Source: a virus. Taken from it: 30,818 nucleotides of DNA. A program made the translations under genes and the position numbers. Location: the IMG/VR virus record IMGVR_UViG_3300030331_004259, positions 1-30,818 of that record. The stretch is one strand, 5' to 3'. A model generated the notes under the pieces. That model made no database searches, was not told the DNA's origin, and saw only the letters and a program-made list of their open reading frames with translations. Below, one piece after another: positions 2,275 to 20,020 of this stretch (the stretch's first letter is position 1; every line of letters starts with the position of its first letter).

Positions 2275-2295
2275 AGTTAGATCAAGTACGTTTTA

Positions 2296-2697
2296 ATGCC
2301 TCAACAGCGGGTAAGTCAGAGTTTTAAGGATATAAGTATGTCATTTGAGACTAATCCTCTCAATGATGACCTTATTGGTTTAAAAAATTCAAGTGCAATT
2401 GCCCGTTCGATAAGAAATATCGTCTTTACAAGGCCTGGAGAAAAATTTTTTCAACCAGAATTTGGTTCAAGAGTATCAGAATCACTTTTTGAGATTGTAG
2501 ATCAAGTATCTTCACTATCAATTCGTGATGAAATCCGAAATTCAATCATAAATTATGAACCAAGAGTGAAATTATTGAGTGTGGATGTTGTTCCAAATCC
2601 GGAAGATAATGAAATGAATGTTACGATAAAGTATGAGATCGTAGGTATTGATATTCCACCACAACAATTAGATTTTGTGTTACTTCCAACTCGATAA
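2296..2697 (+). CDS. 25: baseplate wedge subunit gp25
   Basis: gp25 is a small wedge protein that helps join the gp6-based ring to the tail sheath base; it belongs to the gene 25/lysozyme-like (GPW_gp25) family of contractile injection systems. The family pattern is visible: FKDISMSF near residue 10-17, then NPLNDDLIGLKNSSAIARSI with the conserved asparagine and alanines, IVFTRPGEKFFQPEFGSRV (about 42-60) and SLFEIVDQ, then a strand-rich C-terminus. At 133 residues it is nearly identical in length to T4 gp25 (132). The ATG at 2296 is preferred over an internal ATG at residue 15 because the FKDIS segment is conserved. The stop is followed at once by the gene 6 ATG with no spacer, pointing to coupled translation. 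Confidence 0.93.
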   Translation: MPQQRVSQSFKDISMSFETNPLNDDLIGLKNSSAIARSIRNIVFTRPGEKFFQPEFGSRVSESLFEIVDQVSSLSIRDEIRNSIINYEPRVKLLSVDVVPNPEDNEMNVTIKYEIVGIDIPPQQLDFVLLPTR

Positions 2698-4629
2698 ATG
2701 GCACTCATAAATTTTACAAATCTGGATTTTGAGCAGATTAAATCAACTTTAAGAGATTACATTCAAAGTAATTCAGATTTTACTGACTATGACTTTGAGG
2801 GATCTAACTTATCAACTATTTTAGACGTATTAGCTTACAATACTTACATCACATCGTATAATGCAAACATGGTATCGAATGAAGTTTTCATCGATTCCGC
2901 AACTTTACGTGAAAATGTAGTTTCTTTAGCTAGAAATATTGGTTATGTGCCTCGATCAAAGAAATCTTCAAGAACAAATATTAATTTTTTCGTTGATTTG
3001 TCAGATATTTCACCAACTCCGGCAAATTTAACTCTAAAAGCAGGCCCTGTGGCGAGCACGGGAGGTCAATTTAACAATCAATCGTTCGTTTTTGGTATTC
3101 CAGAGGACATAACCGTGTCTGTAATTGATGGAATTGCAAATTTTGATAGTATTGAGGTATATGAGGGAACATATTTAAGTCAAAGTTACGTATTTTCTAC
3201 TAGAAATCCATTTCAAAAGTTTATTTTACCAAATAGTGGAATTGATTTGGACAGTTTAGTCGTAAATGTTCGTCCATCATCACAATCGTCAGTTAGAACC
3301 ACTTATAATCGACATGACAGTCTTTTTGATAATGATACTGGTACAACAATTAATGGTAATTCAAATATTTACTTCATTCAAGAGGTTGAAAGTGAAAGAT
3401 ATGAGGTAATTTTTGGTGATGGTATATTTGGAAAAAAACTACAAGATGGAAATGTGGTGGAAGTTACATATATTACAACTAATGGATCAGATGGTAACGG
3501 TATAAGTAATTTTACATTTTCTGGATCACTATCATTTGTAAGAAACTCTGTTGAAATATTTGTAACAAGTGGAATATCTTTATTAACAAGTGAAGGTTCA
3601 TCAAGTGGTGGTGAGAGTATCGAAAATATTGATTCAATTCGTAAATATGCACCACAAATTTACGCAACACAAAACAGAGCTTTAAGTGCAAATGATTACG
3701 AAGTTTTAATTCCTAATAAAATCTATCCAGAAGCTGAATCAATATCTGTTTACGGTGGTGAGGATCTTGTTCCACCTCAATATGGTAAGGTTTTTATTAG
3801 TATTAAACCAAGAAATGGTGATTTTGTACCGAATTTAATAAAACAAAATATCAAAAGGGACTTAAAAAAATATGCAGTTGCTGGAATTGTCCCTGAGATA
3901 TTAGATTTAAAATATTTGTTTATTGAAACAAACAGTAAAGTTTATTACAACACAAATTTAGCACCAAGTGCCTCATTCGTATCAACGATCGTACAGAGGA
4001 ATTTAACAACATACGCTAACTCTTCACAATTAAACAAATACGGTGCTCGATTAAAGTATAGTAAATTACTAAAAGTAATTGATGAAAGCCATGAATCAAT
4101 AACTTCTAATATCACAACTGTTGAGATGAGAAGGGATCTTCGTTTAGCTGTAAATCAACCAGCTGAATATGCGATTGATTTTGGAAATCAATTTCATATA
4201 AAATCGATGACCGGATATAATATTCGATCAAGTGCATTTAGAGTTATAAACATAAGTTCTGATGTGTATTTGTTTGACACACCTGATATAAGTGGTGAAA
4301 AAGGTCAAGTTGGTTTATTCTCACTCACTGAAGGATCATCTACACCGATTATTCAAAGAAAAAATATCGGAGTCATAAATTATAAGACAGGACGCATCAC
4401 TTTAGATCCAATAAATATAGTATCAGGTAAAACAAAAGACAACGTTCAAATTATGGAAATATCTGTAAGTCCAGAATCGAATGATGTTATTGGATTACAG
4501 GATCTATATCTTCAATTAGATAGTAGCGTTGTTGAAATGGTCGTGGATCAGATCAGCTCTGGTAGTGATCCTTCAGGATCAACATATACAGTAACCACAA
4601 GTTACAAAAACGGAAGCATCGTTAGATAG
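2698..4629 (+). CDS. 6: baseplate wedge subunit gp6 (Baseplate J-like)
   Basis: gp6 forms the ring-making core of the wedge. Signatures in order: residues about 25-95 carry YDFEGSNLSTILDVLAYNT, then NMVSNEVFIDSATLRENV and ARNIGYVPRSKKS, typical of gp6; residues about 235-265 carry YEVIFGDGIFGKKLQDG; residues about 306-355 carry RKYAPQIYATQNRALSANDY and EAESISVYGGED, the Baseplate_J-type core. The C-terminal third is beta-rich and less conserved (VGLFSLTEGSS; RKNIGVINYKTGRI). The length of 643 is close to T4 gp6 (660). It starts directly on the gene 25 stop, and its own stop is three bases before the giant gene. No sign of truncation. Confidence 0.93.
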   Translation: MALINFTNLDFEQIKSTLRDYIQSNSDFTDYDFEGSNLSTILDVLAYNTYITSYNANMVSNEVFIDSATLRENVVSLARNIGYVPRSKKSSRTNINFFVDLSDISPTPANLTLKAGPVASTGGQFNNQSFVFGIPEDITVSVIDGIANFDSIEVYEGTYLSQSYVFSTRNPFQKFILPNSGIDLDSLVVNVRPSSQSSVRTTYNRHDSLFDNDTGTTINGNSNIYFIQEVESERYEVIFGDGIFGKKLQDGNVVEVTYITTNGSDGNGISNFTFSGSLSFVRNSVEIFVTSGISLLTSEGSSSGGESIENIDSIRKYAPQIYATQNRALSANDYEVLIPNKIYPEAESISVYGGEDLVPPQYGKVFISIKPRNGDFVPNLIKQNIKRDLKKYAVAGIVPEILDLKYLFIETNSKVYYNTNLAPSASFVSTIVQRNLTTYANSSQLNKYGARLKYSKLLKVIDESHESITSNITTVEMRRDLRLAVNQPAEYAIDFGNQFHIKSMTGYNIRSSAFRVINISSDVYLFDTPDISGEKGQVGLFSLTEGSSTPIIQRKNIGVINYKTGRITLDPINIVSGKTKDNVQIMEISVSPESNDVIGLQDLYLQLDSSVVEMVVDQISSGSDPSGSTYTVTTSYKNGSIVR

Positions 4630-4632
4630 CAG

Positions 4633-7600
4633 ATGTCAGAAAAAAGAATTAAATTAAATCAAATTGTAAAAAGTCAATTACCCTCTTATGTCAAAGAGGA
4701 TTTTCCGCTTGTTGGTGAATTTTTGTCTCAATATTATACAGGACAAGAATATCAAGGTGGGCCAATTGATTTAATTCAAAATATTGACTCTTATATAAAA
4801 TTAAGTGAATGTGGTAACTTAATCAAATCAACAAATACGACTACAAAAGTTGGAGTAACGACTTCAACTATTTTTGTTTCCAACACAACAGGATTTCCTG
4901 ATAATTATGGTATATTAAAGATTAATGATGAAATTATAACTTATGAAAACAAAACAGATAATAGTTTCACAAACTGTGTAAGAGGTTTTAGTGGAATAAC
5001 ATCTTTTCGTAACCAATCAGATCCCGAAAATCTTGTTTTTTCAAGTTCTACAGCTGAAAATCATGAAAATGATGCTGTTGTCGAAAATTTAAGTGTTTTA
5101 TTTCTTGATGAATTTTTAAAAAAAGCAAAAAAACAATTTTTATACGGTTTTGAAAAAGATTTAAATGAAAATTTAAATAAACCTCAGTTTATTCGTCAAT
5201 CAAAAGATTTTTATTCAACACGGGGAACTGACGAATCTTTTAAAATTCTTTTTGGTGCTTTATATGGGGAAAAAGTTGATATAATTCGTCCAATTGAAAA
5301 TGTTATATCACCATCTAATGCAAATTATCAAAAAACAAGGGATATAATAGTTGAACCATATGTTGGTGATCCAGAAGATCTTTTAAATAAGACACTTTTT
5401 CAAGATGATTTTGAAAATGTGTCAAAAGCATACGCACCAGTTGGAGCAGTTGAAAAAATAGCTGTTGGAATAATTACAAATACATTTTATAAAATAAGTC
5501 TTGATGGATCTCAGGTTGTTCCTGACGGATCTACAAGTATGATATATGGTGAATTTTCTCCACATGCAAAAACAAAGATCATAGGTGAGGTTGGCATAGC
5601 TCAAACTTTTATCGATGTTGATTCCACTTTGGGATTCCCTAATTCTGGAACATTATCATTTTTATATAAAAATGGGACATCTGGTGTATGCACATATGCA
5701 GAAAAAACAATTAATCAATTTTTAGGAATTAATACAACAGGAATAACCACATCGATTGCAGATAATACATCCATTGATCAAAATACTTTTGCTTATTCTG
5801 GTGATGTTCAAGTAAAGATAAGAAATGTTTTAAACAATTTTATAATACCACCTCTGGTTAATAATCAAGTAGCAAATAGTAAAATAAAAATAAAAAATTT
5901 AGGTAAAGTTGGTGAAAGTGTAAAAGAAAATAATTGGTTATTTAACACAGCACAAAGTTATGTGGTTGAAAAACTTGAAATTATTGATAGCACAAACAAC
6001 ACTTTTAAATTAACAACTAAGGATACAAATATTTTAAGAATAGGTGATAAAATAACAACTCATGAAACTTTAGCTTCGGGATCTCAGTGGGGTGATAATA
6101 TAACAGATACTTTTGATCCTGCTTCAAATAAATTATATGTTGTAAATGATGTATTCAATAATAAAGAGTGTTTAATTTCGGGAACTGGAATTAATGATCC
6201 TCGTAAAATTACAAAAGTAACTAGGAGAATTTCCAAGGTTGATTCAGATATTCATTCAGATTTAAATATTTTTACCGCAAATATTCAAAATATATACACG
6301 AAACCTGACGGTGGTTTAGTAAATGGAGTGAAATATTTTGGGCCATCACATGAACATCCAACAAAGGGAGTTCAAATGGTTGGTGCTAGACACGTTCCGT
6401 TTCCACATGCAACCATAACACCAATTGAAGGTCAAAATAAAGTATATGTTGCATCATCATCTTTACCATTTACTGGTGTCACAAAATTAAATCCAAAAAC
6501 TCAAAAATTAACTTTTGGTGGAACATATAATTTAAACGATGAAGAGATAAAAATATCTGATCAGGTCGATCATAACTTTTTTACAGGGGATGCTGTTTAT
6601 TATACACCACAAAAAGGATCTGTTAATACGATTGACTCTGAGGGTAATGTAATAACTCAAGAGTTTATCATTAGTCGATTATTCCCAGAGGGTTTATATT
6701 ATGTAAAAAGAATTGATTCCAATACTGTAAAGTTAGCTAAAAGTCAATCTGATATTTACAGTGGCATATTTGCAAAAGTAACTCCGGACGGAGGAGTTGA
6801 TAATGTTACAATATCATCAAATGATATTGAAAAGTTTTACTTTAATGGTAAAAAAATAAGACCTCAAAAATTAATAAGAGAAATACTAACTCCTGTTAAA
6901 GATGGTAAAAAACATGAAACATCTCCAGGCTATACTGGTATACTTGTTGATGGTGTAGAAGTTTTAAATTATAAATCAAAAAATTTTGTTCACTATGGTG
7001 AATTAAAATCAATTAATATTGTAGATGGTGGAGAAAAATATGATATTATAAATCCACCTGTATTATCAATTGAAGACACTGTAGGTAGTGGTGCTACCGG
7101 TGTTTGTGCTGTAAGAGGGACACTAGAGGATATTCGCATATTAGATTCTGGATTTGATTATATTGAAGAACCAATTATCAAAATAACAGGTGGAAATGGA
7201 TTAGGAGCTAACGCAGTGGCGAAGCTCAATGCAAAACCTTATGAGATTATTTTTAATGGAGATGGTGTTGGTCTTGGGACAGTAAAATTAGACACTGCTG
7301 GTATTAATACCTCTTCAATAGGATTTACTACCTATCATAAGTTTAGACCGGGTGAGAGGGTCATATACGACCCTTTGGGAGGCATTCCCCTTGTTGGTTT
7401 ATCAACAGATTCTTTATATTACGTTTCCTCTGTATCTGAATATACCATTCAATTACATAAAACTTATGATGATGCAACTTCTGGTATCAACACGATTTCA
7501 TTTACAAATTTTGGATCTGGTGTTCAATCCTTCAAATCATTAAATGGAAAATCAATATTAAGTTCAATCGTAATATTAGATAAAGGATCAGGATATGAAA

Positions 7601-10600
7601 ATAAATCAAGATCTTGTGCATCCCTCGGTATTAATACATCTCTAAACACAGTTACTATTAAAAATCATGATTATAAAAATGGAGAAATTTTGCAATACTC
7701 TGTTGATGGAACAGTAGTTGATGGATTATCTACAAATAAAAATTACTATGTAACAGTAATTGATAATGATACTTTTAAATTATCAGAGGTTGGCACTGGA
7801 TCTACAGACAAACGATTTTTCTATGATACAAAACAATTCAATGAATTTAGAAATACAGGAGTCGGAACTCATAGTTTTAATTATGAACCAATATCAGTTG
7901 AAGTAATAGGTAAAGTTGGAATATCATCAATCGCTGGAAAAACATTTGAAGCTGTTGTTCAACCTATTTTTAGAGGTGAAATTACAAGTGTTGATTTGAC
8001 AAAAACAGGTGTTGGATACGGTGCATCTGAAATTTTAAACTTTGTTAGATCACCTAAAGTCAATTTGTACTCAGGTAAAGATGCAGTTATAACTCCTGTA
8101 GTGGCTAATGGAAGAATAGTTGATGTAAGTGTGAGTTATGGTGGAACTGATTATAATTCACCTCCAGATTTAGTAGTATTAGGAATAGGTTCGGATGCTA
8201 AATTAACTCCAGAATTAAATTCATCAGGTAATATAATTTCAGTTAATATTCAAAGCAGTGGAATCGGTTATGGAGTAACATCGACCTCAGTAAGAGTAGA
8301 ACCTTCAGGAAAAGGAATTAAATTTAATCCAGAACTTCAAAAATGGAGAGTAAATGAATTTAGAAAAAATTTATCAAATTTAAATGATGATGATGTATTC
8401 ATAAGCACACCAACTAATCGTCTTTTTGAATTACAGTGTTCTTATGTTTATGCCCCTAGAAATTTAAGAAGAATATCATATGCAAATGATCCGGATGGTA
8501 ATATTTTATATGGTAAAAAAGATTTAACACTCATTAATAACGTTGAAAGTAATAGCGATCAACACTCACCAATCATTGGTTGGGCTTACGATGGTAATCC
8601 AATTTATGGGCCATATGGTTACTCAACAAGAACTGGTGGTAGCATAGTTCAATTGAAATCTGGATACGTAGATGAAACTATAAAAAAATTCAATAGACCT
8701 CCGGTAAGTGTATTTCCACCTGAGTTTTTTGTGGAGGATTTTACATATAAAACATCAAGTGATGAAAGTGTTTTAGATGAAAATAATGGTAGATTTTGTA
8801 TAACTCCTGAGTATCCAAATGGAACTTATGCTTACTTCACAACGTTAGATTCAACTGCTGCATCGGATGGTATATTTAAAAACTTTAAAAAACCTAAGTT
8901 CCCATATTTAATTGGAAATGAATTTCATTCAGTACCAAATAAATTTAACTTTAGTAGATTATCAAATCAGGAAGATTTTGATTTAAATAAATCAAACTCA
9001 ATAAGAAATGTTTTACCATATTCATTTAATAAAGATTTTAGTGGATACGACTACGTAAGAGAGTCTTATAAATTTGTTAATCAAGATACTAATATTGATT
9101 TTGCTGAAAAAGGTAAAGTGGATAGTATTGGAATTACTTCTGGTGGAAGAAATTATAGAATTAACGATAGAGTTGTTTTTGATCCTAGTGTTGATAGTTC
9201 TTTTAAAGCAGATGGAAAGATTACATTACTAAATGGAGTATCAATATCTGAAATAAACGTTGATAGCACAAAAATTTCAAATATTGAGTTTTATCGCCAA
9301 ACCACAAATACTTTTGTTGGTATTGCATCAACCGCTTTAAATTTAAAGAATAATACAAAAGTAAGAGTGGGTGGACTTACCACAACAACATCATTTTTAG
9401 AGGGTGCTTATAACATTGGAGTGAGTTCATCTAAATTAGTTTTGACACAAGGAATAGGGACTGCCACAGCCACTGGTATCGTGACCTTCTTTAATATTTC
9501 TGGTAATTTATCTGATGTAAGAGAAAATGATATATTCAAAGTTGGAGTTGGAACAGAACAAATAAAAGTTCTTAATGTTGATCGATTATCATCAAGACTT
9601 AGAGTTCTTAGATCAGTTAATTCTACAACTGGTGTTTCTCATACAGCTTCAGTTGTTTTAGAAAGTATTCCAAGAAGATTTACCATAAACACAGGGGTAA
9701 ATACTACATCTAAATTAAAACAAAATAAAGAATTTTTCTTTAATCCACAAGAAAGTTTAGGTTTAGGAACACTTCCAACAAGTGGTGTTGGTGGCGTTGG
9801 AATTGGAAGCACGATAGTTTTTTCAAATCCCGGAACAGGGTTAACTCAAATATTTGCACCAACACAATCAATTTATCTGCCTAATCATGGACTTGAAACT
9901 GGTGATGAAGTTGTTTATGAATTAAACAAATTAAGTGGATCAGAACAATCACCATTAGTTAAATTCACCAATCTTCCACCCACAGTAAATACGTTTTTGG
10001 GTGTTGGTGTAACTTTATTTGTAGCAAGAAAATCAGTTGACTTTATAGGATTATCCACAATCCCAGTTGGAGTAGGATCAACTGGAGGATTTGTTGGATT
10101 TGCGACAAATGGTTCTTTTGTACCCATAGGAACAGGAAATGCGACACAACCACAATTTGATTTACTTTATTTTCTTAACTCAGGTATAGGGTCAATTCAT
10201 AGTTTGAGAACACAATTTCCTGTGGTAAAAGGTGAGTTAGAAAAAAATGTAGTTACGGTTGTTGGATCTGGAACACACGGACTTTTAACTAATGATACAG
10301 TTTTTATTGATGTTAAATCAGGTTTAACTACAACGGTAACGGTTAAGTACAATAAAGATAATCGTAAAGCAGTATTCAATCCTTTAAACTTTGTGGCAGC
10401 TGGAATAGTAACTGCTGGATTTTCAACGAACACCACAGGAAAAGTTCCAAGTTCAATTGAAATAAAAGAACATGATTTTGTCACAGGTCAAAAGGTAATT
10501 CATACTTCAGATGGGCCAGCTTTAGGATTAATTAATAACAAAGAATATTATGTGTATGTCGTTGATTCCGATACTATTAAGTTAGTTCACAACAAATATG

Positions 10601-13600
10601 AATTATCACAAACTACTCCTAAATTTGTTGGAATCACCTCAGCCGGAGATGGCACCCTATCATTAATTAACCCTCCTTTCAACTTTTATAGAAATTCTAA
10701 TGTTGTGTTTGATTTATCAGATGAATCTTTATCTTATACTCAAAGTGCAACAAAATATGCAGCATTTTATTTTGATTTTTATAAAGATAATAGATTTTCG
10801 GAAATATTTGAAACTACTGGATCATCAATAACATTTGATGTTTCTAGGACAGGAACAATCGGAGTCACTGGAGACGCTAAAGTAACGTTAAAAATAAAAG
10901 ATGACACTCCAACTACTTTATACTATAAATTATCACCAGTTGAAGTATCGGATAATTTAACAGAGAATAAGGATATTGTTGCAGACGATGATGTTAATTT
11001 AAACAATCAAATTTCTATTTTAGATAGCAAATTTAACGGAAGATTTGATATCATATCAACCGGATCCACAACCTTTACTTATGATATTGATACTTATCCA
11101 GAATCAGGTTCATACTCCTCAACAAATTCTAAATTAAGGTTCACAACAATTTCAACAAGTGCTTATGGTAGTGTTGAACAAATAACAATTACAGATGGTG
11201 GTGGTGGGTATAAAGAATTACCCGGTATAACAACTATAACATCAGATCTTGGTGTAGGAGCAGTTATAGAGCCTTTCTCAGTTAGTGTTGGTAAACCTAC
11301 AAAAGTATCTTTATCAAATATTGGATTTGATTATCCTAATGACATAACCTTAAGACCTGAAGCTTTATTTCCACAAGTTTTAAGAATAACACCTTTAACT
11401 GGTTTTAGATCAATCGGTATCACATCTTTTGGAAGAGGTTATATCACAAATCCAAGTTTAGTGGTAATTGATGGTGTAACAAAAAAAGAAATAACTGATG
11501 TTGATTTGAGATATAATCCAAATGAAGAAATAGTCGAAATTTTAGAAAATTCAGAATCTCTCAATAATGCTCCACCTACAATCATACCCATTGGTAACTC
11601 AAATGGTATTAGAGCGAAAAATTTTGAATATAATTCATCAACACAAGAGGTCACTGTTACTTTAAAAAATTCATTTAGTGGCACTTTAAATGCTATAGGT
11701 GAATATATTGATCCATTCCCATTTACCGTTGGTGACAAAGTATTAGTTGAAAAGGCAAGCGTTGGTGTGGGTTCAACTGGATTAGGATATAATTCTGATC
11801 AATATGACTATGCGTTATTCCCAGTAACTGCAGTTCATCCAAACTACGGTGGAATTGGAATAGTTACTTACAGCATGGCTGAATATCTGGAAAAAGACAC
11901 AGAATTTCCCGGTGTTTTTAATTTAGTTAAGTCTGCAGCAACGCTCATTCCTGATAAATGGTTCCCACAGTTTGATATTGTCTTACAACCAAATGATTTT
12001 AGAATTGATGATGAAATTCAAAGTATAGATTCTTCTGGTCTTCTTATCAAGGGAACAGTGGCTGATTGGAATAATTCAAGTAAATATTTAACGGTAGAAA
12101 GCACAAGAGAATTTGAAGTTGGTAGAATTGTTGAACAAGTAAAATTTAGAGGAGAGAGAATTGGAAGTAAGGAGTATTCTTCCCCTACCGGTGCAAAAGG
12201 AATTATAAAAGAAGTTATATCATACAAATCAAAATATAATTTAGATTATTTTTCAATCGTAGAAAATGGTTGGGAATTAGAAACTGGATTTTTAAATAAT
12301 GAACAACAGCGTGTTCATGATAATGATTACTACCATGCGTTTTCATACGCGATAAAATCCAAAGTTCAAGTGAGTGAATGGGAAGATACTGTTAGTTCTC
12401 TTAATCACACTTCAGGATTTAAAAAATTTAGCAATCTGCAAGTTGAATCAAAATTATCAGATTCAAGAGATGATGATTTAATTGTAAGACCTGTTGACGG
12501 AACAACGATATTAGTTGAATTAGTAGGTAAAGAAAGTTTACAATCATTCCATGATTTTGATTTAGCCTCTGAAAATTACATAACAGGTGCAGTTAAACCA
12601 TATTCTGATGAAATTAATTTCAAAACAAGATTATTAACGGATTACTCTGAATCTGTTTCTAACAGAGTTGTTACAATAGATGATTTTAGTAATTTATTTA
12701 ACAACAACGCAAGATCAACTCCTTTTGCAGATGTTTATAGAAACAGATTAGATGATGGTCGAGTTCAGTTCTTTGTGGCTTACATTCAAGACAGATTATT
12801 TACAGGTGAAAGACAAATCATGATAGTTAACACACTACATGATACTGGTCGTGGATTAACAATGATGAATCAGTATGGTTCTGTTGAAACCACTTTAGAT
12901 TTGGGATCATTTGATTTTGTCATAGATGGTGTTGAGTCTGTCCTTAGATTTTTCCCCCATAAATCTAGAATTAATGATTATAATGTCATATTATGGTCTT
13001 ACCAAATTGATAAAAACCAATTAGGTGTAACCACAACAAATGTTGCAACAGCAACCACATCTATTCCTGCTGAACCATTTAATCCATCAACATCTGAGGG
13101 TTTAAACGGATCTCTCGTTAGCATTCAATCAACATGTGTTTCAGTTGCTGGTGGTGCTGCTGGTACGGTGTTTACTCTTGCTGGTATTGGAACAACAGTT
13201 TCTGGACATAGATCAGCAAAATTATTTGTAAGTGTTGAAGGTAGTGATGGTAGTGTTGAATATGATCAAGTTAGTGTAATTCATGATGGCACAAATGTGG
13301 GATTCCAAGAATATGGTCAATTGACAGTTCATTCAAGTGATGCATATTCATCAACTGGTAACATTGGCACTTTCTTCCCATTAGTTGTTGGGAATGATCT
13401 TGTGGTCAGATACACCCCAGATGCTGGTTTAACAACAGCTTTTATAAATGCAACTGCAATTGGAATTGCAACTGAAGGATATATTGGTATTGGATCTTAT
13501 GATATGGCATATGCAGAGATGTCTGCACAGAGCACTGGTATCTCATCATCTTCGACACCAGTTGCAGTTGGTATCGCAAGTTACGGAGATGCTTATGATG

Positions 13601-16600
13601 CTGCATATTGTATCGTCCAAATAGCTGATAAATTGAATGGAAGTTATGAATTAGCAGAGGTAATAATAATTGATGATTTTACAGATGATGATAATGTTTA
13701 CTTAACTGAGTTTGGTAATGTAAAAGTTGGCACAGCGTTCGCTGGTTTAGGAACAATAAGTGGTAGAAGAACCTCTGATAATGTTACTGAAATAACATTT
13801 GTACCAAATGCTGGAATTGGAGTTTCCATAACAACATTCCTTAACTCTTTAAGAGTAGAGGAAAATACTGAATTATTACCAGCAGATGCAACTAGAGATG
13901 TTGGTGGCGAAGCTGTTAAAGATTTACAAAACGCCTCTATAGAAAGTGGATTTGCACAATATGAAGGAACAGAATCAGCGATAAAAACTAAATTTGCTCT
14001 TGAACATAATGGTGATCCTATATTTAAAAAACCTTATGATGGATCAACTTCAACTGTGGTTGATATAACAAATAACACAATTACTTTACCTAATCACTTC
14101 TTTGTAAGTGGTGAGGAGGTGTCATATGCACATACCGATAGAAGAACTGGAATTTCATCTGCAATAGGAATAGCATCAACCTCATTCCCATCTTTAGGTA
14201 TTACTACATCATTATTACCATCCTCATTATTCATTATTAAAAAAGGTGAAGATAAAGTTCAATTAGCAAGAACAGCAGAAGATGCGTTGAAAGAGGTCGC
14301 AGTTCCTCTTGACTTGACACATGTTGGAATTGGAACATCACATACATTTACTGGTAAAAATCCTAATACAAGAGTATTAGTTGCAATTGATAATTATCTA
14401 CAATCACCAATTGCTGGCACATCAGTTACAACAACTCTTGACAGAGCTGCTGATAAATCTCAAGATGTAATATTCTTCACAGGAATTACATCATTCTTTG
14501 GTGCTGATAATATTCGTGTAAGTAGTGGTAATACAAGTGAAGTGATGAAGATATTGTCAGTTGGAATTGGCACAACAAATGGAATTAAAGTAAGAAGACA
14601 AAGACTAGGAACAACAATTGCAGGATTCCCAACTGGATCACTTGTCGAAAAAATACGAGGTAATTATAATATTGTTGAAAACGAAATTGCGTTTGCAGAG
14701 GCACCTCCCGGAAAAAATCCAATTGGATCAACAACAAATCCACCTAGTGAGAGAGATTTTGTTGGAATAACCACTTCTTCTAGTTTCCAAGGTAGAGTAT
14801 TTACTCGATCTGGTATTACTAATGGAAATACTGAAACTTATGTTAGTAATCATTTGTATGATGATTTAACATCTGATTTTAATGGTAAAAATAGACAATA
14901 TGCACTTACTGTAGATAAAGCACAGAAAACAGGTATCGCAACTAACAACGCTTTGATACTTATAAATGGTGTTCTTCAAGCTCCCGGATCAAATGGTAAT
15001 TTTGAATTAGACACAGTAGGATCTGGAACAACAATTACTTGGACTGGTGCTGCAAGTTCAGTGGCAAGAGACATCAATACAGCTGGAATACCTGTTGGTG
15101 GAGTAATTATATCTGTCGCATCAACAAGTGGTTTTGGATATCAACCATTAGTTTCAGCTGGTGGAACTGCTGTGGTATCACTAGCAGGAACAATCAATAG
15201 TGTAAGTATAGGTAATACAGGTTCTGGTTATAGATCAGGCATTCAAACAGTGTCTGTAGGTTTGCAAACTGAGGGATTTGATCACTCTGGTATCACAACC
15301 ATTGGTCTTGCTAATGTTAGTGGTGGTCATGTTACTGATGTGACTATTACCAACCCACAATTCTTCTACAAACCAAGAGATATTTACAATGTTGGATATT
15401 CTTCGATCACTGGTATAACAACCATAACCACAGCATTTGCACATAATTTATCCGTTGGAAATGAAGTGGTTGTATCTGGTATTGCATTCACATGTGACTA
15501 CGCCCCAGCTGTCGGAGTGCAGAGTGCAAATTATGATAACACCACTGGTATCATGACGGTAACTACACTTGCTGCTCATGGATTATCTACAACTGGTAAG
15601 AGCAGTGATGTAATATTAACTGGTTTGGCATTTACATGCGGACTTGGTGCGACAGTAAATCATATCTATCCAAGAAACAGAGATCGTTTCTTTGACACTG
15701 CAATATCCGTTGCATCAACAACAGCAACAACCATAACTTTAGATGTATCAAAATCTCCTATTGGTCAACAATATACTCATAGATTTATAGGTGCTGCAAG
15801 TAGTGCTGTGATACAAGGTGGTGATTATTCTCATACATTCCGATATGCACTTCCAAATGCAGTGACAACAGGTGTTGGAACTCAGTTTACGCCAACTAAT
15901 GCGACATATAACGCATCAACTGGAGTATTTGTAATATCAATACCAAGTCATGGTTTATCAACAAATGATACTGTTGGTATTGGCACGAGTTCGATTGTCT
16001 TCTCTTGCGAGATGGATCATTATGGAAGTGATCATCCATATCCAAGACCGACTGATCCGATAGCTGGCATACAAACTGCAATCACTGCTGTAACCACTAA
16101 TACCATAACAATAAACGTAGGTAAGTCTGAATTAAACTTCTACGATGTATCTGACGCAACATATGCTGCTGATACTGGTGTATTAGTTCTTACAATAGGT
16201 TCTCATACCCTATTACCGGGAAGAAGTATAAAACTTAAAAAAGAATCATTAAGATTTACCTGCTCTAAAAATAATTTTGCAACTCAACATAAGTATCCAC
16301 GAGAGGGTGATCCTGTATTTGATGGAACACCCGTGGTTGGTGTTGCGAGTGCTACTCAATTCACAATAAATGCTGGCATATCTACTGTTCCTACAGATTA
16401 CGTTTCTGGTGGATTCATACAACCAGCGATAATCGCACCAAGAGCGAATAATAACTCACCAAGTGGTCAAGATGTAGCTTTTGATGGATCAACAGTGTTA
16501 AGAGTTTTAAGTGCAACAGAGTTTGAAATTAATAGTGGTATTTCAACAAGAGCTCATTTGTACGCAAGAGGTGGTAGAGTTGATCAATTAACAAAAATTG

Positions 16601-18444
16601 TTATAGATGATCCATTATCATATAACGATATGCAGTTAATTCATAGCGTAACTAGCCCCGGAACAGCAGGTTCAGAGGCAAGAGCAGATGTTGTTGTGAG
16701 TCAAGGTTCAACTATAATGGACTTTAAGATTACAAATACTGGATATGGATATGGTATTAGTGAAATATTAACACTTCCCCTTACAGGTTCAGCTGGCATC
16801 CCAACGACACCTAATTTTGTTGATAATCAAGAATTTAGAATTACTGTCAATGATGTAGCAAGTGATCAATTCAGTGGATGGTCTGTTGGTCAACTTCAAG
16901 TTTTAGATGATTTTTCAAATTTATTTGATGGATCAAGACGAACCTTCCCAATAACAGTTGCTGGTGATTCACTTTCAATTCAAGCAACACCCGGATCAAC
17001 GGTTACAGTTCAAGATACTCTTTTCATATTTGTTAATGATATACTTCAAATACCCGGTGAATCTTATACTTTCCTTGGTGGAAGTAACATAACTTTTGAT
17101 GAGGCACCTAAATTTGAAGATACACTTAAAATATTATTCTACCGTGGAACTGGTGGTGCTGATGTTGTTGACAGAGAGGTAATTGAAACTGTTAAAGTTG
17201 GTGATGATCTTACTCTCGGATATCACAGTAAACTTAATCAGGAAAGATGGTTACAAGAGAAGAAAAGAGGTGTTTTAGAAATCACATCAGTTAATTCAGT
17301 TGACACCACAACTTATGATGAGGAGGGGTTATTTGAAGATACTAGAGTTTTCCGTCCAGTAGTTTGGACATTACAAACTGAGGATAAATTCATTGAGGGT
17401 AAATTTATATACAAGGATAGAGATTTGTACAAAGGAAATATTTTCCCAACAACAAATCTCATACAGTCAGTGGGAGTTGGTACTACAATAGCGTATGTCA
17501 CTGGTGTAAGACCATTCTTTAATGCTAAAAATGAAAACGCAGTATCAACAGAATTTCAAAAAAATATTGTTATAGTGAATAATGTTGAAAGATTATCAGC
17601 TGCTGCTACTGCTATCGTTTCTGCTGCTGGAACAATTTCTTCAGTAGCAATTTCTACTGGAGGTAGGGGATATGATAGTGCTCCAACGGTAACAATTCAA
17701 AATCCAGTTGGATTAGGGACAACTGCCCGTGCAGAAGCGACAGCATCAATTACTAATGGTGTTGTAACAGGTATAACTGTTTCAACTGCTGGAACACAAT
17801 ATAGTGATGCAAATCCACCAGTTGTTCTTATAGGGGCTGACCCTGTTCTTGAAGAAACTAATTCTGTAAAATCATATGCAGGTGATCATGGTATTATCAC
17901 TGGTATTGGAACAACCTCATTAGCTGGAGTTGCTGTAACTGGATTAGTATTTGATTTAGTGATTCCATCTGATTCATTCCTTAGAAATTCTGATATTACA
18001 CAAGGAACAACAGGTTCAGGTGCTAATAGTGGTATAGTTACATCTGGTTTAAATGTTGGCGATTTCTTCATTGTAAGTAACTCTAATGTGGGTCATGGAT
18101 TAACATCACTAAATACTGATGGCAGTGCTGTAGGTGTCGGTACGACTTATATTGACAATGTTTATCGTGTTGCTCATCGCACATTAGGTGTAACAACAGA
18201 TGCGATGGGATTTGGATCTACAGTTGTAACGCAAGTTGTTGTGAGCGTTAACAGTTTAAATGGTCTAACTGGATTAGGTCATAGTATGTACTTTGGTGAT
18301 TACAGTTATGGTAAATTATTATTAAATGATAGAAACACAGTTCGATCATACCCAGTTAATACTTCAAACGGTGTCACTGGCATATTGACTGGGCCAATTA
18401 TCAAGAGAGAATCATTCTTAAAAACTCAAAGTTATTCCACATAA
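4633..18444 (+). CDS. giant modular virion protein in the gene 7 position, 4603 aa
   Basis: A protein of roughly 0.5 MDa filling 45 percent of the window, with no internal stop. Its place between genes 6 and 8 is that of T4 gp7 (1032 aa), so the N-terminus may be the wedge initiator, but beyond position the homology is unproven. Residues 1-60 (LPSYVKEDFPLVGEFLSQYY) and about 190-225 (FYSTRGTDESFKILF, LYGEKVDI) match marine T4-like phage baseplate proteins. Next come beta modules: a YHYH-type domain (about 1240-1410), a DNDYYHAFSYAIKSK segment (about 2555-2610), a tandem beta pair (2862-3077), Cys/His repeats (3590-3900), an IFVNDILQIPGESY domain (4090-4180) and about 14 Gly-x-Gly-Tyr repeats. 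There is no membrane segment or signal peptide. The start is three bases after gene 6. Probable role: baseplate wedge plus a long peripheral structure. Confidence 0.85.
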   Translation: MSEKRIKLNQIVKSQLPSYVKEDFPLVGEFLSQYYTGQEYQGGPIDLIQNIDSYIKLSECGNLIKSTNTTTKVGVTTSTIFVSNTTGFPDNYGILKINDEIITYENKTDNSFTNCVRGFSGITSFRNQSDPENLVFSSSTAENHENDAVVENLSVLFLDEFLKKAKKQFLYGFEKDLNENLNKPQFIRQSKDFYSTRGTDESFKILFGALYGEKVDIIRPIENVISPSNANYQKTRDIIVEPYVGDPEDLLNKTLFQDDFENVSKAYAPVGAVEKIAVGIITNTFYKISLDGSQVVPDGSTSMIYGEFSPHAKTKIIGEVGIAQTFIDVDSTLGFPNSGTLSFLYKNGTSGVCTYAEKTINQFLGINTTGITTSIADNTSIDQNTFAYSGDVQVKIRNVLNNFIIPPLVNNQVANSKIKIKNLGKVGESVKENNWLFNTAQSYVVEKLEIIDSTNNTFKLTTKDTNILRIGDKITTHETLASGSQWGDNITDTFDPASNKLYVVNDVFNNKECLISGTGINDPRKITKVTRRISKVDSDIHSDLNIFTANIQNIYTKPDGGLVNGVKYFGPSHEHPTKGVQMVGARHVPFPHATITPIEGQNKVYVASSSLPFTGVTKLNPKTQKLTFGGTYNLNDEEIKISDQVDHNFFTGDAVYYTPQKGSVNTIDSEGNVITQEFIISRLFPEGLYYVKRIDSNTVKLAKSQSDIYSGIFAKVTPDGGVDNVTISSNDIEKFYFNGKKIRPQKLIREILTPVKDGKKHETSPGYTGILVDGVEVLNYKSKNFVHYGELKSINIVDGGEKYDIINPPVLSIEDTVGSGATGVCAVRGTLEDIRILDSGFDYIEEPIIKITGGNGLGANAVAKLNAKPYEIIFNGDGVGLGTVKLDTAGINTSSIGFTTYHKFRPGERVIYDPLGGIPLVGLSTDSLYYVSSVSEYTIQLHKTYDDATSGINTISFTNFGSGVQSFKSLNGKSILSSIVILDKGSGYENKSRSCASLGINTSLNTVTIKNHDYKNGEILQYSVDGTVVDGLSTNKNYYVTVIDNDTFKLSEVGTGSTDKRFFYDTKQFNEFRNTGVGTHSFNYEPISVEVIGKVGISSIAGKTFEAVVQPIFRGEITSVDLTKTGVGYGASEILNFVRSPKVNLYSGKDAVITPVVANGRIVDVSVSYGGTDYNSPPDLVVLGIGSDAKLTPELNSSGNIISVNIQSSGIGYGVTSTSVRVEPSGKGIKFNPELQKWRVNEFRKNLSNLNDDDVFISTPTNRLFELQCSYVYAPRNLRRISYANDPDGNILYGKKDLTLINNVESNSDQHSPIIGWAYDGNPIYGPYGYSTRTGGSIVQLKSGYVDETIKKFNRPPVSVFPPEFFVEDFTYKTSSDESVLDENNGRFCITPEYPNGTYAYFTTLDSTAASDGIFKNFKKPKFPYLIGNEFHSVPNKFNFSRLSNQEDFDLNKSNSIRNVLPYSFNKDFSGYDYVRESYKFVNQDTNIDFAEKGKVDSIGITSGGRNYRINDRVVFDPSVDSSFKADGKITLLNGVSISEINVDSTKISNIEFYRQTTNTFVGIASTALNLKNNTKVRVGGLTTTTSFLEGAYNIGVSSSKLVLTQGIGTATATGIVTFFNISGNLSDVRENDIFKVGVGTEQIKVLNVDRLSSRLRVLRSVNSTTGVSHTASVVLESIPRRFTINTGVNTTSKLKQNKEFFFNPQESLGLGTLPTSGVGGVGIGSTIVFSNPGTGLTQIFAPTQSIYLPNHGLETGDEVVYELNKLSGSEQSPLVKFTNLPPTVNTFLGVGVTLFVARKSVDFIGLSTIPVGVGSTGGFVGFATNGSFVPIGTGNATQPQFDLLYFLNSGIGSIHSLRTQFPVVKGELEKNVVTVVGSGTHGLLTNDTVFIDVKSGLTTTVTVKYNKDNRKAVFNPLNFVAAGIVTAGFSTNTTGKVPSSIEIKEHDFVTGQKVIHTSDGPALGLINNKEYYVYVVDSDTIKLVHNKYELSQTTPKFVGITSAGDGTLSLINPPFNFYRNSNVVFDLSDESLSYTQSATKYAAFYFDFYKDNRFSEIFETTGSSITFDVSRTGTIGVTGDAKVTLKIKDDTPTTLYYKLSPVEVSDNLTENKDIVADDDVNLNNQISILDSKFNGRFDIISTGSTTFTYDIDTYPESGSYSSTNSKLRFTTISTSAYGSVEQITITDGGGGYKELPGITTITSDLGVGAVIEPFSVSVGKPTKVSLSNIGFDYPNDITLRPEALFPQVLRITPLTGFRSIGITSFGRGYITNPSLVVIDGVTKKEITDVDLRYNPNEEIVEILENSESLNNAPPTIIPIGNSNGIRAKNFEYNSSTQEVTVTLKNSFSGTLNAIGEYIDPFPFTVGDKVLVEKASVGVGSTGLGYNSDQYDYALFPVTAVHPNYGGIGIVTYSMAEYLEKDTEFPGVFNLVKSAATLIPDKWFPQFDIVLQPNDFRIDDEIQSIDSSGLLIKGTVADWNNSSKYLTVESTREFEVGRIVEQVKFRGERIGSKEYSSPTGAKGIIKEVISYKSKYNLDYFSIVENGWELETGFLNNEQQRVHDNDYYHAFSYAIKSKVQVSEWEDTVSSLNHTSGFKKFSNLQVESKLSDSRDDDLIVRPVDGTTILVELVGKESLQSFHDFDLASENYITGAVKPYSDEINFKTRLLTDYSESVSNRVVTIDDFSNLFNNNARSTPFADVYRNRLDDGRVQFFVAYIQDRLFTGERQIMIVNTLHDTGRGLTMMNQYGSVETTLDLGSFDFVIDGVESVLRFFPHKSRINDYNVILWSYQIDKNQLGVTTTNVATATTSIPAEPFNPSTSEGLNGSLVSIQSTCVSVAGGAAGTVFTLAGIGTTVSGHRSAKLFVSVEGSDGSVEYDQVSVIHDGTNVGFQEYGQLTVHSSDAYSSTGNIGTFFPLVVGNDLVVRYTPDAGLTTAFINATAIGIATEGYIGIGSYDMAYAEMSAQSTGISSSSTPVAVGIASYGDAYDAAYCIVQIADKLNGSYELAEVIIIDDFTDDDNVYLTEFGNVKVGTAFAGLGTISGRRTSDNVTEITFVPNAGIGVSITTFLNSLRVEENTELLPADATRDVGGEAVKDLQNASIESGFAQYEGTESAIKTKFALEHNGDPIFKKPYDGSTSTVVDITNNTITLPNHFFVSGEEVSYAHTDRRTGISSAIGIASTSFPSLGITTSLLPSSLFIIKKGEDKVQLARTAEDALKEVAVPLDLTHVGIGTSHTFTGKNPNTRVLVAIDNYLQSPIAGTSVTTTLDRAADKSQDVIFFTGITSFFGADNIRVSSGNTSEVMKILSVGIGTTNGIKVRRQRLGTTIAGFPTGSLVEKIRGNYNIVENEIAFAEAPPGKNPIGSTTNPPSERDFVGITTSSSFQGRVFTRSGITNGNTETYVSNHLYDDLTSDFNGKNRQYALTVDKAQKTGIATNNALILINGVLQAPGSNGNFELDTVGSGTTITWTGAASSVARDINTAGIPVGGVIISVASTSGFGYQPLVSAGGTAVVSLAGTINSVSIGNTGSGYRSGIQTVSVGLQTEGFDHSGITTIGLANVSGGHVTDVTITNPQFFYKPRDIYNVGYSSITGITTITTAFAHNLSVGNEVVVSGIAFTCDYAPAVGVQSANYDNTTGIMTVTTLAAHGLSTTGKSSDVILTGLAFTCGLGATVNHIYPRNRDRFFDTAISVASTTATTITLDVSKSPIGQQYTHRFIGAASSAVIQGGDYSHTFRYALPNAVTTGVGTQFTPTNATYNASTGVFVISIPSHGLSTNDTVGIGTSSIVFSCEMDHYGSDHPYPRPTDPIAGIQTAITAVTTNTITINVGKSELNFYDVSDATYAADTGVLVLTIGSHTLLPGRSIKLKKESLRFTCSKNNFATQHKYPREGDPVFDGTPVVGVASATQFTINAGISTVPTDYVSGGFIQPAIIAPRANNNSPSGQDVAFDGSTVLRVLSATEFEINSGISTRAHLYARGGRVDQLTKIVIDDPLSYNDMQLIHSVTSPGTAGSEARADVVVSQGSTIMDFKITNTGYGYGISEILTLPLTGSAGIPTTPNFVDNQEFRITVNDVASDQFSGWSVGQLQVLDDFSNLFDGSRRTFPITVAGDSLSIQATPGSTVTVQDTLFIFVNDILQIPGESYTFLGGSNITFDEAPKFEDTLKILFYRGTGGADVVDREVIETVKVGDDLTLGYHSKLNQERWLQEKKRGVLEITSVNSVDTTTYDEEGLFEDTRVFRPVVWTLQTEDKFIEGKFIYKDRDLYKGNIFPTTNLIQSVGVGTTIAYVTGVRPFFNAKNENAVSTEFQKNIVIVNNVERLSAAATAIVSAAGTISSVAISTGGRGYDSAPTVTIQNPVGLGTTARAEATASITNGVVTGITVSTAGTQYSDANPPVVLIGADPVLEETNSVKSYAGDHGIITGIGTTSLAGVAVTGLVFDLVIPSDSFLRNSDITQGTTGSGANSGIVTSGLNVGDFFIVSNSNVGHGLTSLNTDGSAVGVGTTYIDNVYRVAHRTLGVTTDAMGFGSTVVTQVVVSVNSLNGLTGLGHSMYFGDYSYGKLLLNDRNTVRSYPVNTSNGVTGILTGPIIKRESFLKTQSYST
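7009..8277 (+). repeat. Gly-x-Gly-Tyr repeat cluster 1 (giant protein residues 793-1215)
   Basis: Six copies of a short beta repeat: a hydrophobic strand, [TDS]-x-G-[GSFV]-x-[GDK]-Y, then often a Pro and a second strand. Copies: INIVDGGEKYDIINPPVLSI, DIRILDSGFDYIEEPIIKI, IVILDKGSGYENKS, SVDLTKTGVGYGASEILNF, DVSVSYGGTDYNSPPDLVVL and SVNIQSSGIGYG. Two module A copies sit among them. The pattern suggests a stacked or solenoid-like beta rod. Confidence 0.72.
8350..8862 (+). other. YHYH-type domain inside the giant protein (about residues 1240-1410)
   Basis: The core HSPIIGWAYDGNPIYGPYGY spans residues 1311-1330 and matches the GxAxDGxPIYGPYGY core of YHYH-domain proteins. Downstream, LDENNGRFCITPEYPNGTYA (about 1381-1400) matches the asparagine- and Tyr-containing second half seen with such domains. 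The literal YHYH string is not present. Domain limits are estimates. The domain's function is not established; a surface-binding or metal-related role would be a guess. Confidence 0.65.
9121..9180 (+). repeat. single Gly-x-x-Tyr repeat (giant protein residues 1497-1516)
   Basis: SIGITSGGRNYRINDRVVF follows the same strand, GG-x-x-Y, strand pattern as the other clusters. It lies just after the YHYH-type domain region and before a segment with IFKVGVGTEQIKVLNVD. Confidence 0.65.
11170..11487 (+). repeat. Gly-x-Gly-Tyr repeat cluster 2 (giant protein residues 2180-2285)
   Basis: Three copies about 40 residues apart: QITITDGGGGYKELPGITTI, KVSLSNIGFDYPNDITLRPE and SIGITSFGRGYITNPSLVVI. The even spacing suggests tandem duplication of a small beta unit. 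Confidence 0.72.
13216..13863 (+). repeat. tandem pair of beta domains (giant protein residues 2862-3077)
   Basis: Two stretches of about 86 residues align along their length. Copy 1 (about 2862-2948) has KLFVSVEGSDGSVEYDQVSV, then FQEYGQLTVHSS, then VVRYTPDAGLTTAFINATAI. Copy 2 (about 2991-3077) has YCIVQIADKLNGSYELAEVI, then LTEFGNVKVGTA, then ITFVPNAGIGVSITTFLNSL. Both show a strand, EY/EF-G-x-[LV]-x-V, and a closing [TV]P-[DN]-AG-[LI] hairpin, consistent with duplicated beta-sandwich domains. DNA identity is low. Confidence 0.65.
14860..15057 (+). repeat. degenerate copy of the FVNDxLQxPG domain (residues 3410-3475)
   Basis: DFNGKNRQYALTVDK, then NNALILINGVLQAPGSNGNF, then GTTITWTGAA. 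It parallels the fuller copy at 16900-17172: the F-[ND]-G-[KS]-x-R start, [IF]-[LF]-[IV]-N-[GD]-[VI]-LQ-[AI]-PG core and final strand are in the same order. Confidence 0.6.
15121..15267 (+). repeat. Gly-x-Gly-Tyr repeat cluster 3 (residues 3497-3545)
   Basis: Two adjacent copies: STSGFGYQPLVSAGGTAVVS and INSVSIGNTGSGYRSGIQTV. The first resembles the classic form in which the strand after the Tyr is followed by a Gly-Gly turn and a small-residue strand. Confidence 0.65.
15400..16332 (+). repeat. Cys/His beta repeat array, FTC...H-x-YPR...D (residues 3590-3900)
   Basis: Four copies of a unit reading TG-[IV]-[MF]-x-[VI]-[TS]-x-x-x-H-x-L...V-x-[LI]...F-[TS]-C. Copies 2, 3 and 4 continue to H-x-YPR: C3669 with H3677-IYPR, C3792 with H3801-PYPR and C3877 with H3886-KYPR; each YPR is followed two residues later by Asp. 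Copy 1 has FTC (C3621) but not the His-YPR part. Fixed Cys, His and Asp spacing in every full copy hints at metal binding or a buried network. Confidence 0.72.
16720..16797 (+). repeat. single Gly-x-Gly-Tyr repeat (residues 4030-4055)
   Basis: MDFKITNTGYGYGISEILTL. It closely resembles copy 4 of cluster 1 (TKTGVGYGASEILNF), including the G-Y-G-x-SEIL run, more than it resembles its neighbours. This suggests two repeat subtypes. Confidence 0.65.
16900..17172 (+). other. DDFSNLF...FVNDxLQxPG domain (residues 4090-4180)
   Basis: QVLDDFSNLFDGSRRTFPIT begins the unit; LFIFVNDILQIPGESYTFLG is its core; NITFDEAPKFEDTLKILFYR ends it. I know this order from tail and fibre proteins of marine T4-like phages, where it tends to recur. 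A related TIDDFSNLFNNNARSTPF occurs earlier, near residue 2690. Confidence 0.65.
17635..17847 (+). repeat. Gly-x-Gly-Tyr repeat cluster 4 (residues 4335-4405)
   Basis: Two consecutive copies in the most canonical form: SVAISTGGRGYDSAPTVTIQ, followed by a Gly-Leu-Gly-Thr-Thr turn and an Ala-rich strand (TARAEATAS), then GITVSTAGTQYSDANPPVVL. The period here is about 40 residues. Confidence 0.72.
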
Positions 18445-18447
18445 ATA
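18440..18447 (+). promoter_or_regulatory. probable late promoter variant (CATAAATA) before gene 8
   Basis: One mismatch from TATAAATA, overlapping the giant gene's TAA stop and 16 bases before the gp8 ATG at 18464. The position is right for a late start, but the surrounding run of A and T makes chance matches easy. Confidence 0.45.
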
Positions 18448-18463
18448 AATAAAAAAATCTCAA

Positions 18464-20014
18464 ATGGCAGCTATAATTACTGATCAGATAAGAATATTAA
18501 ATGCAAAGAATTTTGTTGCGGGAGTTTCAACGTCTACTAATTCATATTATTCGTTTGTGGGTTTGACTGATCCAACAAGTATTCAAACTGACTGGGATGA
18601 TGATCCACCTTCACCAATAGATAATTTTAATAATCAAAATGATATTTGGGATACAATTATTGCTGTTAAAAAAATAAATGACACTGATGTAAAACAAGTT
18701 GTTAAGAGGAATTCTTGGACTTCTGGAACAACATATGATTATTACAGACCAGATTATAGTGTGATAAATCCCCCTAAACACGCTCAAGGAACATCATTAT
18801 ACTCATCCAATTATTTTGTTTTAAATAGTGATTTTAGGGTTTATATTTGTTTAAAAAATGGAACAAGTCCAGAGCAACCTGATGGTAAACCATCTCTTGA
18901 TGAACCAACTTTTACTGATTTAGAACCAAAAGCTGCTGGCACGAGTGGTGATGGATATATTTGGAAATATCTCTATACAATTAAACCATCAGAATTAATA
19001 AAATTTGATTCTACTGAATTTATGCCAGTGCCATCAGATTGGTCAACTGGAACTGATAACGCTCCTGTGAGAGATAATGCAGTTGATGGTGGTATAAAAG
19101 TTGTTATAATTCAAAATCGTGGTGTTGGTTTAGGAACTGCAAATAGAACATATACTAGAGTTCCAATTAAAGGTGATGGTAGTGGTGGAGAGTGCACAGT
19201 AGTTGTAAACGCTGATCAACAAATAGGATCTGTCGATGTAACTAATCAAGGATCTGGATATACATTTGGTAATGTGGATATTGTTGCAGGTGGTTTGCCA
19301 AGACCAGATGCTTATCCTCAACTTGATGTTATTATTCCTCCAACTGGTGGACATGGATCGGACATTTACAAAGAATTGGGTGCAACAAATGCCTTGGTGT
19401 ATTCAAGAATTGAAAACGATTCAGAAAATCCAGACTTCATCACTGGTAATCAAATTGCAAGAATAGGTATTGTAGAAAATCCACAAGCTTTTGGTTCATC
19501 ATCACTTCTTTCTTTAGATAAAGCAAGTGCAGCCTACGCTCTTCGTTTAACTGGAACGGGGTATAGTAGTGCGACTTTTACAGCAGACTCTATCATAACT
19601 CAAACAACTGGAACTGGTGTTACTGCTATTGGTAAAGTTATAAGTTATGATCAAATAACAGGTGTATTAAAGTATTGGCAAGATCGCACGATGGCAGGAT
19701 TTACAACTGTTGGTGCAGCTACCACAACACCTATATTTGGATTAAATGCTGATAGGTTCACGGCAGACATAGCGACCGGTGGTAGTGTAAGTATTACTGG
19801 TGGCAGTATACCACTTGAAATAAACACAGCATTTGATGGTCTGTCAACCTCAATAAATAATAAAACATACTATCTTGGTCAAACATTTACAAGTGGCGTG
19901 TCAAATCCAGAAGTTAAAAAATATTCTGGAAATATACTTTATGTTGATCATCGACCAGCTATCACTCGTTCTTCTAATCAAAAAGAAGACATAAAAGTTA
20001 TATTGCAGTTCTAA
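18464..20014 (+). CDS. 8: baseplate wedge subunit gp8 (cyanophage type), 516 aa
   Basis: gp8 is a wedge protein that in T4 dimerises and binds gp7 and gp10. The N-terminus MAAIITDQIRILNAKNFVAG and the segment YSFVGLTDPTSIQTDWDDD, then DIWDTIIAVKKIN and VVKRNSWTSGTTYDYYRPDY, are the pattern of gp8 in marine T4-like phages, as is DGYIWKYLYTIKPSELIKF. At 516 residues it is well over T4 gp8 (334). Some extra length is a beta region containing SVDVTNQGSGYTFGNVDIVA (residues 256-275), the same Gly-x-Gly-Tyr repeat found in the giant protein. The ATG lies behind a run of A with no strong ribosome binding site. The end (SSNQKEDIKVILQF) matches the conserved gp8 C-terminus. Confidence 0.85.
   Translation: MAAIITDQIRILNAKNFVAGVSTSTNSYYSFVGLTDPTSIQTDWDDDPPSPIDNFNNQNDIWDTIIAVKKINDTDVKQVVKRNSWTSGTTYDYYRPDYSVINPPKHAQGTSLYSSNYFVLNSDFRVYICLKNGTSPEQPDGKPSLDEPTFTDLEPKAAGTSGDGYIWKYLYTIKPSELIKFDSTEFMPVPSDWSTGTDNAPVRDNAVDGGIKVVIIQNRGVGLGTANRTYTRVPIKGDGSGGECTVVVNADQQIGSVDVTNQGSGYTFGNVDIVAGGLPRPDAYPQLDVIIPPTGGHGSDIYKELGATNALVYSRIENDSENPDFITGNQIARIGIVENPQAFGSSSLLSLDKASAAYALRLTGTGYSSATFTADSIITQTTGTGVTAIGKVISYDQITGVLKYWQDRTMAGFTTVGAATTTPIFGLNADRFTADIATGGSVSITGGSIPLEINTAFDGLSTSINNKTYYLGQTFTSGVSNPEVKKYSGNILYVDHRPAITRSSNQKEDIKVILQF
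19229..19288 (+). repeat. Gly-x-Gly-Tyr repeat copy in gp8
   Basis: SVDVTNQGSGYTFGNVDIVA at gp8 residues 256-275, preceded by a GDGSGGECTVVV strand like the Gly-turn strands of the giant-protein copies. Confidence 0.7.
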
Positions 20015-20020
20015 TAACTC

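Follow-up and report, generated by a model that had tools for sequence, protein, structure and literature searches.

The 4603-aa protein encoded between gp6 and gp8 in the analysed DNA (a 30.8-kb virus record of 30,818 nt, hereafter the window) was established, at the level of sequence, as the gp7 of this phage. By profile comparison, roughly 200 of its residues (1-62 and 146-293) form a core whose homologue in T4 gp7 sits in the C-terminal half of that protein; one beta module is inserted in this core, and around 4300 residues are appended to it. New here are this homology and where the core lies, the correction of a claim in print that gp7 is absent, and an elastic array of modules (the F array) within the appended chain; the giant gp7 itself is of a kind already catalogued in marine cyanophages, and this gene type has long been in databases.

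The frame runs from ATG to stop through 4603 codons with no interruption. The gene order of the window, which comprises gp25, gp6, giant gp7, gp8, a VrlC-type protein, two small proteins and gp13-like and gp14-like neck proteins, was the same as the cyanophage order. The principal genes are as follows:

2296..2697 (+), gp25, wedge / sheath initiator (PHROG 261)
2698..4629 (+), gp6, wedge (family profile match)
4633..18444 (+), gp7, baseplate wedge protein, 4603 aa, 497 kDa (PHROG 2885, E=0; codon usage)
18464..20014 (+), gp8, wedge, with one C module at gp8 residues 186-272
20021..27673 (+), VrlC-type structural protein, 2550 aa, without the gp7 core

Codon usage of the giant gene correlated with that of the adjoining VrlC gene at r 0.82-0.95 per 1.5-kb block, compared to 0.04-0.26 when read off by one frame, and at r = 0.67 in the last block, which is 309 bases long. 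The N-terminal part of the frame was open in approximately 60 independent IMG/VR contigs, as far as their sequence extends, which argues that the giant gene is no assembly artefact. C-terminal relatives in other contigs ended at the identical stop position, before gp8, and a profile search of viral contigs retrieved at least 559 gp7 relatives. The preliminary description, made from the letters of the window, had reported a 13.8-kb frame several-fold longer than T4 gp7; the frame was intact and in the gp6-gp8 slot, codon usage and the many contigs agreed with it, and many contigs were free of a stop or frameshift. The closest isolate found was Synechococcus phage SynMITS9220M01, with 73% identity in gp8 and 52% in the first 600 residues of gp7. 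Downstream, at window positions 27887-29199, two adjacent small ORFs both matched PHROGs 1084 and 3304 (tail-fibre assembly) weakly and are possibly a duplicated pair.

A search of the PDB with the whole protein sequence gave chance matches only, so that an N-terminal profile was needed. We used a profile of gp7 residues 1-565, built from 62 sequences, which aligned by hhalign with a T4-type gp7 profile with a probability of 95.6 and an E of 1.1e-8 (window gp7 residues 185-290 on T4 gp7 726-813; aligned core stretches, KDFYSTRGTDESFKILFGALYGEKVDI in the window versus YDFYSTKGIEASYKFLFKVLYNEEVEI in T4 gp7). When the insert at residues 63-145 was removed, a global hhalign placed window residues 1-300 on T4 642-826 with P 2e-10, the T4 helical domain included. 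Two segments make up the homologous region:

4633..4818 (+), helical hairpin, residues 1-62, counterpart of the T4 gp7 helical domain (643-689) (global hhalign)
5068..5511 (+), T4 gp7-homologous core, residues 146-293 (KDFYSTRGTDESFKILFGALYGEKVDI) (hhalign, PDB profile search)

Across comparisons, the core reached probabilities of 95.6-97.6 and E values of 1e-8 to 1e-11, in keeping with the preliminary description, which had taken the first few hundred residues for a conserved baseplate part. Against all PDB sequences, the core profile retrieved T4 gp7 (1.1e-5) and KP1 gp7 (1.6e-5), with no other significant match, and T4 gp6, used as a negative control, did not match it (probability 0.1).

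The core opened 14 of the 14 non-T4 slot proteins tested (503-6603 aa), and the hairpin stood at the N-terminus of the slot proteins. Those in which the core was detected included Ps15 (503 aa), Cr30 (767), Melnitz-3 (896), phiN3 (1006), HTVC008M ORF55 (1016), S-CREM2 (1937) and the giants. In the set as a whole it was N-terminal in 155 proteins, the sole exception being T4, whose core is found in the C-terminal half of gp7. A single core gene, always the slot gene, was present in each of the 11 complete genomes of relatives or reference phages; weaker extra rows in some of them fell outside the core and matched stretches of module A type. The preliminary description had named a gp7 homologue elsewhere in the genome as a finding that would speak against its reading. 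The window being a 30.8-kb fragment, this was examined in complete genomes of relatives: each had a single core gene, and in three of them no T4-type gp7 was seen at another locus.

An AlphaFold2 model of residues 1-565 (mean pLDDT 70.7) showed helices in the hairpin, there with pLDDT below 50. Structure comparison of this model returned T4 gp7 (5iv5 638-840; 5hx2 706-840) and KP1 gp7 with Z about 8 and in the register obtained by sequence. The T4 gp7 match had an rmsd of 13-16 A and ranked level with unrelated single-domain rows; the structure comparison therefore only corroborates the homology of the core. Foldseek alone, run against the PDB with this model and with one of residues 995-1475, gave no match at E 0.001 or better. 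Rows for E1-enzyme and ATPase barrels in the structure search were put down to a common small-barrel resemblance.

Iterated HMMs resolved seven module types, A to G, interleaved along the chain, with no matches in 21 shuffled or reversed controls; profile-profile self-comparison gave 59 matches at a probability of at least 60, compared to none with reversed profiles. The initial count of at least six recognisable, interleaved types was thereby matched, as was the view of the remainder as beta modules, in that much of the chain after the core consists of them. Modules covered 43% of gp7 residues, the remainder being unclassified. Module A occurred in two copies, G in three and B in six, while C was found at seven places; D (YHYH) was single, E appeared twice, one copy being partial, and F amounted to 3.5 copies. 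Self-BLAST found no repeat at 1e-3 and a tandem-repeat search within the gene found nothing, both being too insensitive; the lack of a self-BLAST repeat indicates that the modules are old and diverged. Their positions are listed below, based on HMMs and profile-profile comparison unless otherwise stated:

4828..5010 (+), module A copy 1 (STxGFP), residues 66-126, inside the wedge core (also structure)
5569..5748 (+), module A copy 2, residues 313-372 (also structure)
6529..6741 (+), module B copy 1 (NHGxxGD), residues 633-703
6994..7281 (+), module C (GGxGY), residues 788-883
7300..7461 (+), module B copy 2, residues 890-943
7627..7794 (+), module B copy 3, residues 999-1054 (HMM; resembles the K1F/phi92 endosialidase beta-barrel)
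7972..8292 (+), module C pair, residues 1114-1220 (also a weak match to tailspike Dpo31/36)
8500..8982 (+), module D, YHYH domain, residues 1290-1450, signature YAYF (Pfam, HMM)
9100..9276 (+), module C (weak), residues 1490-1548
9859..10062 (+), module B copy 4, residues 1743-1810
10450..10584 (+), module B copy 5, residues 1940-1984
11047..11349 (+), module C, residues 2139-2239
12730..13872 (+), module G region, three copies, residues 2700-3080
14059..14271 (+), module B copy 6, residues 3143-3213
14947..15051 (+), module E (partial), residues 3439-3473 (profile-profile)
15124..15393 (+), module C, residues 3498-3587
15388..16386 (+), F array, one half and three full copies, residues 3586-3918 (HMM, relatives' alignments)
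16489..16764 (+), module C (weak), residues 3953-4044 (HMM)
16990..17187 (+), module E, residues 4120-4185 (HMM)
17554..17832 (+), module C, residues 4308-4400

In the 1-565 model, module A (63-157 and 311-384) resembled small beta domains of tail proteins of JBD30, Mystique and Chi (Z 9-10). Module C was also present in gp8 (window 19019-19279), VrlC (25964-26182) and the gp14 neck protein (30631-30795), and in P-SSM2, F-type modules (PHROG 1276) occurred in two more frames outside gp7 (17968-18957 and 228878-229117; 332 and 1329 aa). Modules are therefore common to several virion genes.

End-to-end alignment of the giant relatives showed that module order is colinear among them, which contradicts the free assortment implied by the term mosaic in the preliminary description. 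Nor are only the first few hundred residues conserved, as had been stated there: apart from the F array, almost every block was approximately 36-64% identical to SynMITS9220M01, and in several relatives conservation of the YHYH stretch equalled or exceeded that of the N-terminus. The most variable stretch among close relatives lies in the middle of the chain:

9058..11232 (+), residues 1476-2200, 53-73% amino acid identity versus 72-84% in adjoining blocks

The extra length of the window protein relative to SynMITS9220M01, S-SM2 and Bellamy fell nearly entirely within residues 3576-3988, that is, at the F array, which would be a site of gain and loss of module number. Two to five F copies were found in environmental relatives and six in P-RSM4, with an overall range of 0 to 11 per phage. 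In most relatives compared, the F array was the most conserved part of the protein: in close relatives it was 92-100% identical in amino acids, compared to 53-84% in blocks up to residue 2690, and in another relative (L065) 83-91%, compared to 44-64% in most other blocks. Recent horizontal spread of the array was considered in view of its amino acid identity (83-100% versus 44-84% in the blocks to 2690); four-fold sites were moderately raised (40-76% identity in the array versus 33-71% elsewhere). Since this rise is only moderate, the identity of the array fits strong constraint and cassette exchange alike. Both the array and residues 2691-3585 were under strong constraint, with synonymous sites near saturation.

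With regard to host contact, two modules offer leads. In a structural model of residues 995-1475 (pLDDT 75.5), module B resembled the beta-barrel of two endosialidases, those of phi92 and K1F, with Z about 6 and 24-30% identity. Its sequence match to K1F 430-486, in the same register as in the structure, was weak (hhalign probability 14, P 0.0019, top against 500 shuffles), and the module B profile did not find endosialidase among PDB sequences. As this barrel of K1F is a sialic-acid binding site (PMC12632334), predicted structure and sequence suggest a weak resemblance of module B to a sialic-acid-binding barrel. The YHYH domain (PF14240), in turn, was recognised with 77 bits, versus a cut-off of 25. 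A role as a metal-dependent hydrolase has been proposed for this domain, its signature histidines being the suggested zinc ligands (PMC7824862). In the window protein the signature reads Y-A-Y-F, both signature histidines being gone, and among 64 relatives aligned, the A was present in 62 and the F in 63; hydrolase catalysis of that sort would therefore not be expected.

Taken as a whole, the protein is most probably a gp7 wedge subunit that pairs with a gp6 dimer and joins an N-terminal core to a long peripheral scaffold or attachment arm. T4 gp7 is present in six copies (PMC3004832); with six copies per baseplate here as well, arms of about 3 MDa would result. The N-terminal core would nucleate the (gp6)2-gp7 heterotrimer, while the inserted loop and the C-terminal chain would face outward. 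In phage XM1, the gp7 orthologue has an N-terminal helical hairpin, and the tail spikes are held by two further parts of it, a loop insertion and the C-terminal tail (PMC10457771). Window gp7 is apparently enlarged at these same two places, which suggests a peripheral position for its insert and tail. At the rim of the baseplate, the long chain may thus serve both as scaffold and as attachment arm, and some of its modules may contact host-surface sugars. The preliminary description had gone further, in proposing that one chain carries out work that T4 splits among several proteins; this found no support, as gp25, gp6 and gp8 stay separate genes, as does gp9 in P-RSM4. A long rod and receptor or surface binding are only inferred for the gp7 chain. 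A search of the open literature found no cryo-EM work on kyanovirus baseplates.

It is quite possible, if somewhat short of an even chance, that the C-terminal chain is mainly a structural scaffold, which widens or braces the baseplate and binds gp8, VrlC and fibres, and no host sugars. The fixed order and fairly even conservation across more than 4000 residues, the strong constraint on the F array and on 2691-3585, the sharing of module C with the virion structural proteins gp8, VrlC and gp14, and the loss of the YHYH signature histidines all favour such a scaffold, and conservation of the F array is unlike that of a typical fast-evolving receptor-binding tip, which counts against an attachment arm. 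The more variable stretch at 1476-2200, on the other hand, suggests an exposed surface, and module B resembles a sialic-acid-binding barrel. The boldest form of the attachment-arm reading, in which the kyanovirus wedge protein would be an adhesive rim of six 0.5-MDa arms with sugar-binding B barrels and an F array passed on as a cassette, its copy number tuning reach or host range, appears improbable. Very large structural polyproteins exist elsewhere, and this is the sole point in favour of a gp7 that is cut, once assembled, to yield a wedge subunit of T4 size plus detached peripheral parts; such cleavage is very unlikely, given that Pfam revealed no protease signature in gp7 and that no boundary is common to the members, which all retain the core over a size range of 503 to 6603 aa.

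The presence of a gp7 is at odds with a paper on pelagimyophages, which reported that gp7 is absent in such phages, with VrlC in its place (PMC7029224). The Pfam T4 gp7 domains PF21428, PF21427 and PF21456, all three matched by T4 gp7, indeed gave no match in window gp7, and two of them none anywhere in three complete relative genomes; nonetheless, a missing gp7 substituted by VrlC is scarcely credible, because the core was in the slot gene of every genome tested, HTVC008M ORF55 included (E about 1e-13), and none was detectable in VrlC, by which the published absence is contradicted. HTVC008M ORF55 (33435-36485 of its record) is labelled 'head closure Hc2', yet it occupies the gp7 slot and has both the gp7 core and C modules, and is therefore the real gp7 of HTVC008M. 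The presence of module C in gp8, VrlC and gp14 probably explains the cross-annotation as Hc2. In the same genome, ORF59 and ORF62 are named baseplate wedge initiator, and no core was seen in them.

Judged by sequence, abundant marine phages said to lack gp7 do have one. What the one small core bears at its periphery varies greatly, in proteins of 503 to 6603 residues: in T4 most of the added sequence precedes it, whereas here it lies within and behind the core. The F array, module B and the degenerate YHYH domain are concrete targets for work on how these phages meet their hosts.

Among known families, PHROG 2885 ('baseplate wedge subunit', 4179 positions) matched window gp7 over its full length with E=0 and 3320 bits, in two stretches, the best at 602-4599. 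The first 600 residues matched 466 phage records, and among the matches listed, the majority were annotated as baseplate wedge initiator. At 4603 aa, the window protein lies inside the size range of isolate slot proteins (SynMITS9220M01, 4067 aa; S-SM2, 4156; Bellamy, 4067; ACG-2014f, 4225; P-SSM2, 5195; S-CAM1, 3032; P-RSM4, 6603). The PHROG 2885 isolates SynMITS9220M01, S-SM2, Bellamy, ACG-2014f and P-SSM2 share slot, core, colinearity and main modules with the window and differ in F modules, which number 3.5 in the window, 0 in the first three, 1 in ACG-2014f and 11 in P-SSM2. A His-rich insert of 43 residues, YFGPSHEHPTKGVQMVGARH, at window 6304-6432 (gp7 residues ~558-600) was present in the window lineage and absent from five aligned giant isolates. 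The 6603-aa protein of P-RSM4 (2867-22678 of its record) likewise follows gp6 and has the split core and A, C, YHYH, E and F modules, six of them F; it differs by approximately 500 additional residues at the loop insertion of the core (core at 651-784) and by two further genes between it and gp8, and that phage has a separate gp9. S-CREM2 gp122 (1937 aa), a gp7-family member with the gp7 core, YHYH and C modules, was found in virions by mass spectrometry with 91 unique peptides (PMC10665884).

The smaller gp7s of Ps15 (Stenotrophomonas, 503 aa), Cr30 (Caulobacter, 767) and pelagiphage HTVC008M (ORF55, 1016) resemble that of the window in having an N-terminal core followed by C modules; no A, B, YHYH, F or G modules were detected in them. 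XM1 gp17 (242 aa, PMC10457771) has a comparable hairpin, loop insertion and C-terminal tail, but is minimal and without a sequence match to window gp7, so that the two are likened through its published description. Lastly, T4 gp7 (1032 aa) also lies between gp6 and gp8, and its residues ~642-826 are homologous to window 1-62 plus 146-293; T4 gp7, however, has its extra domains mostly before the core and lacks modules A-G, whereas in window gp7 the core is interrupted by an insert and followed by about 4300 residues.
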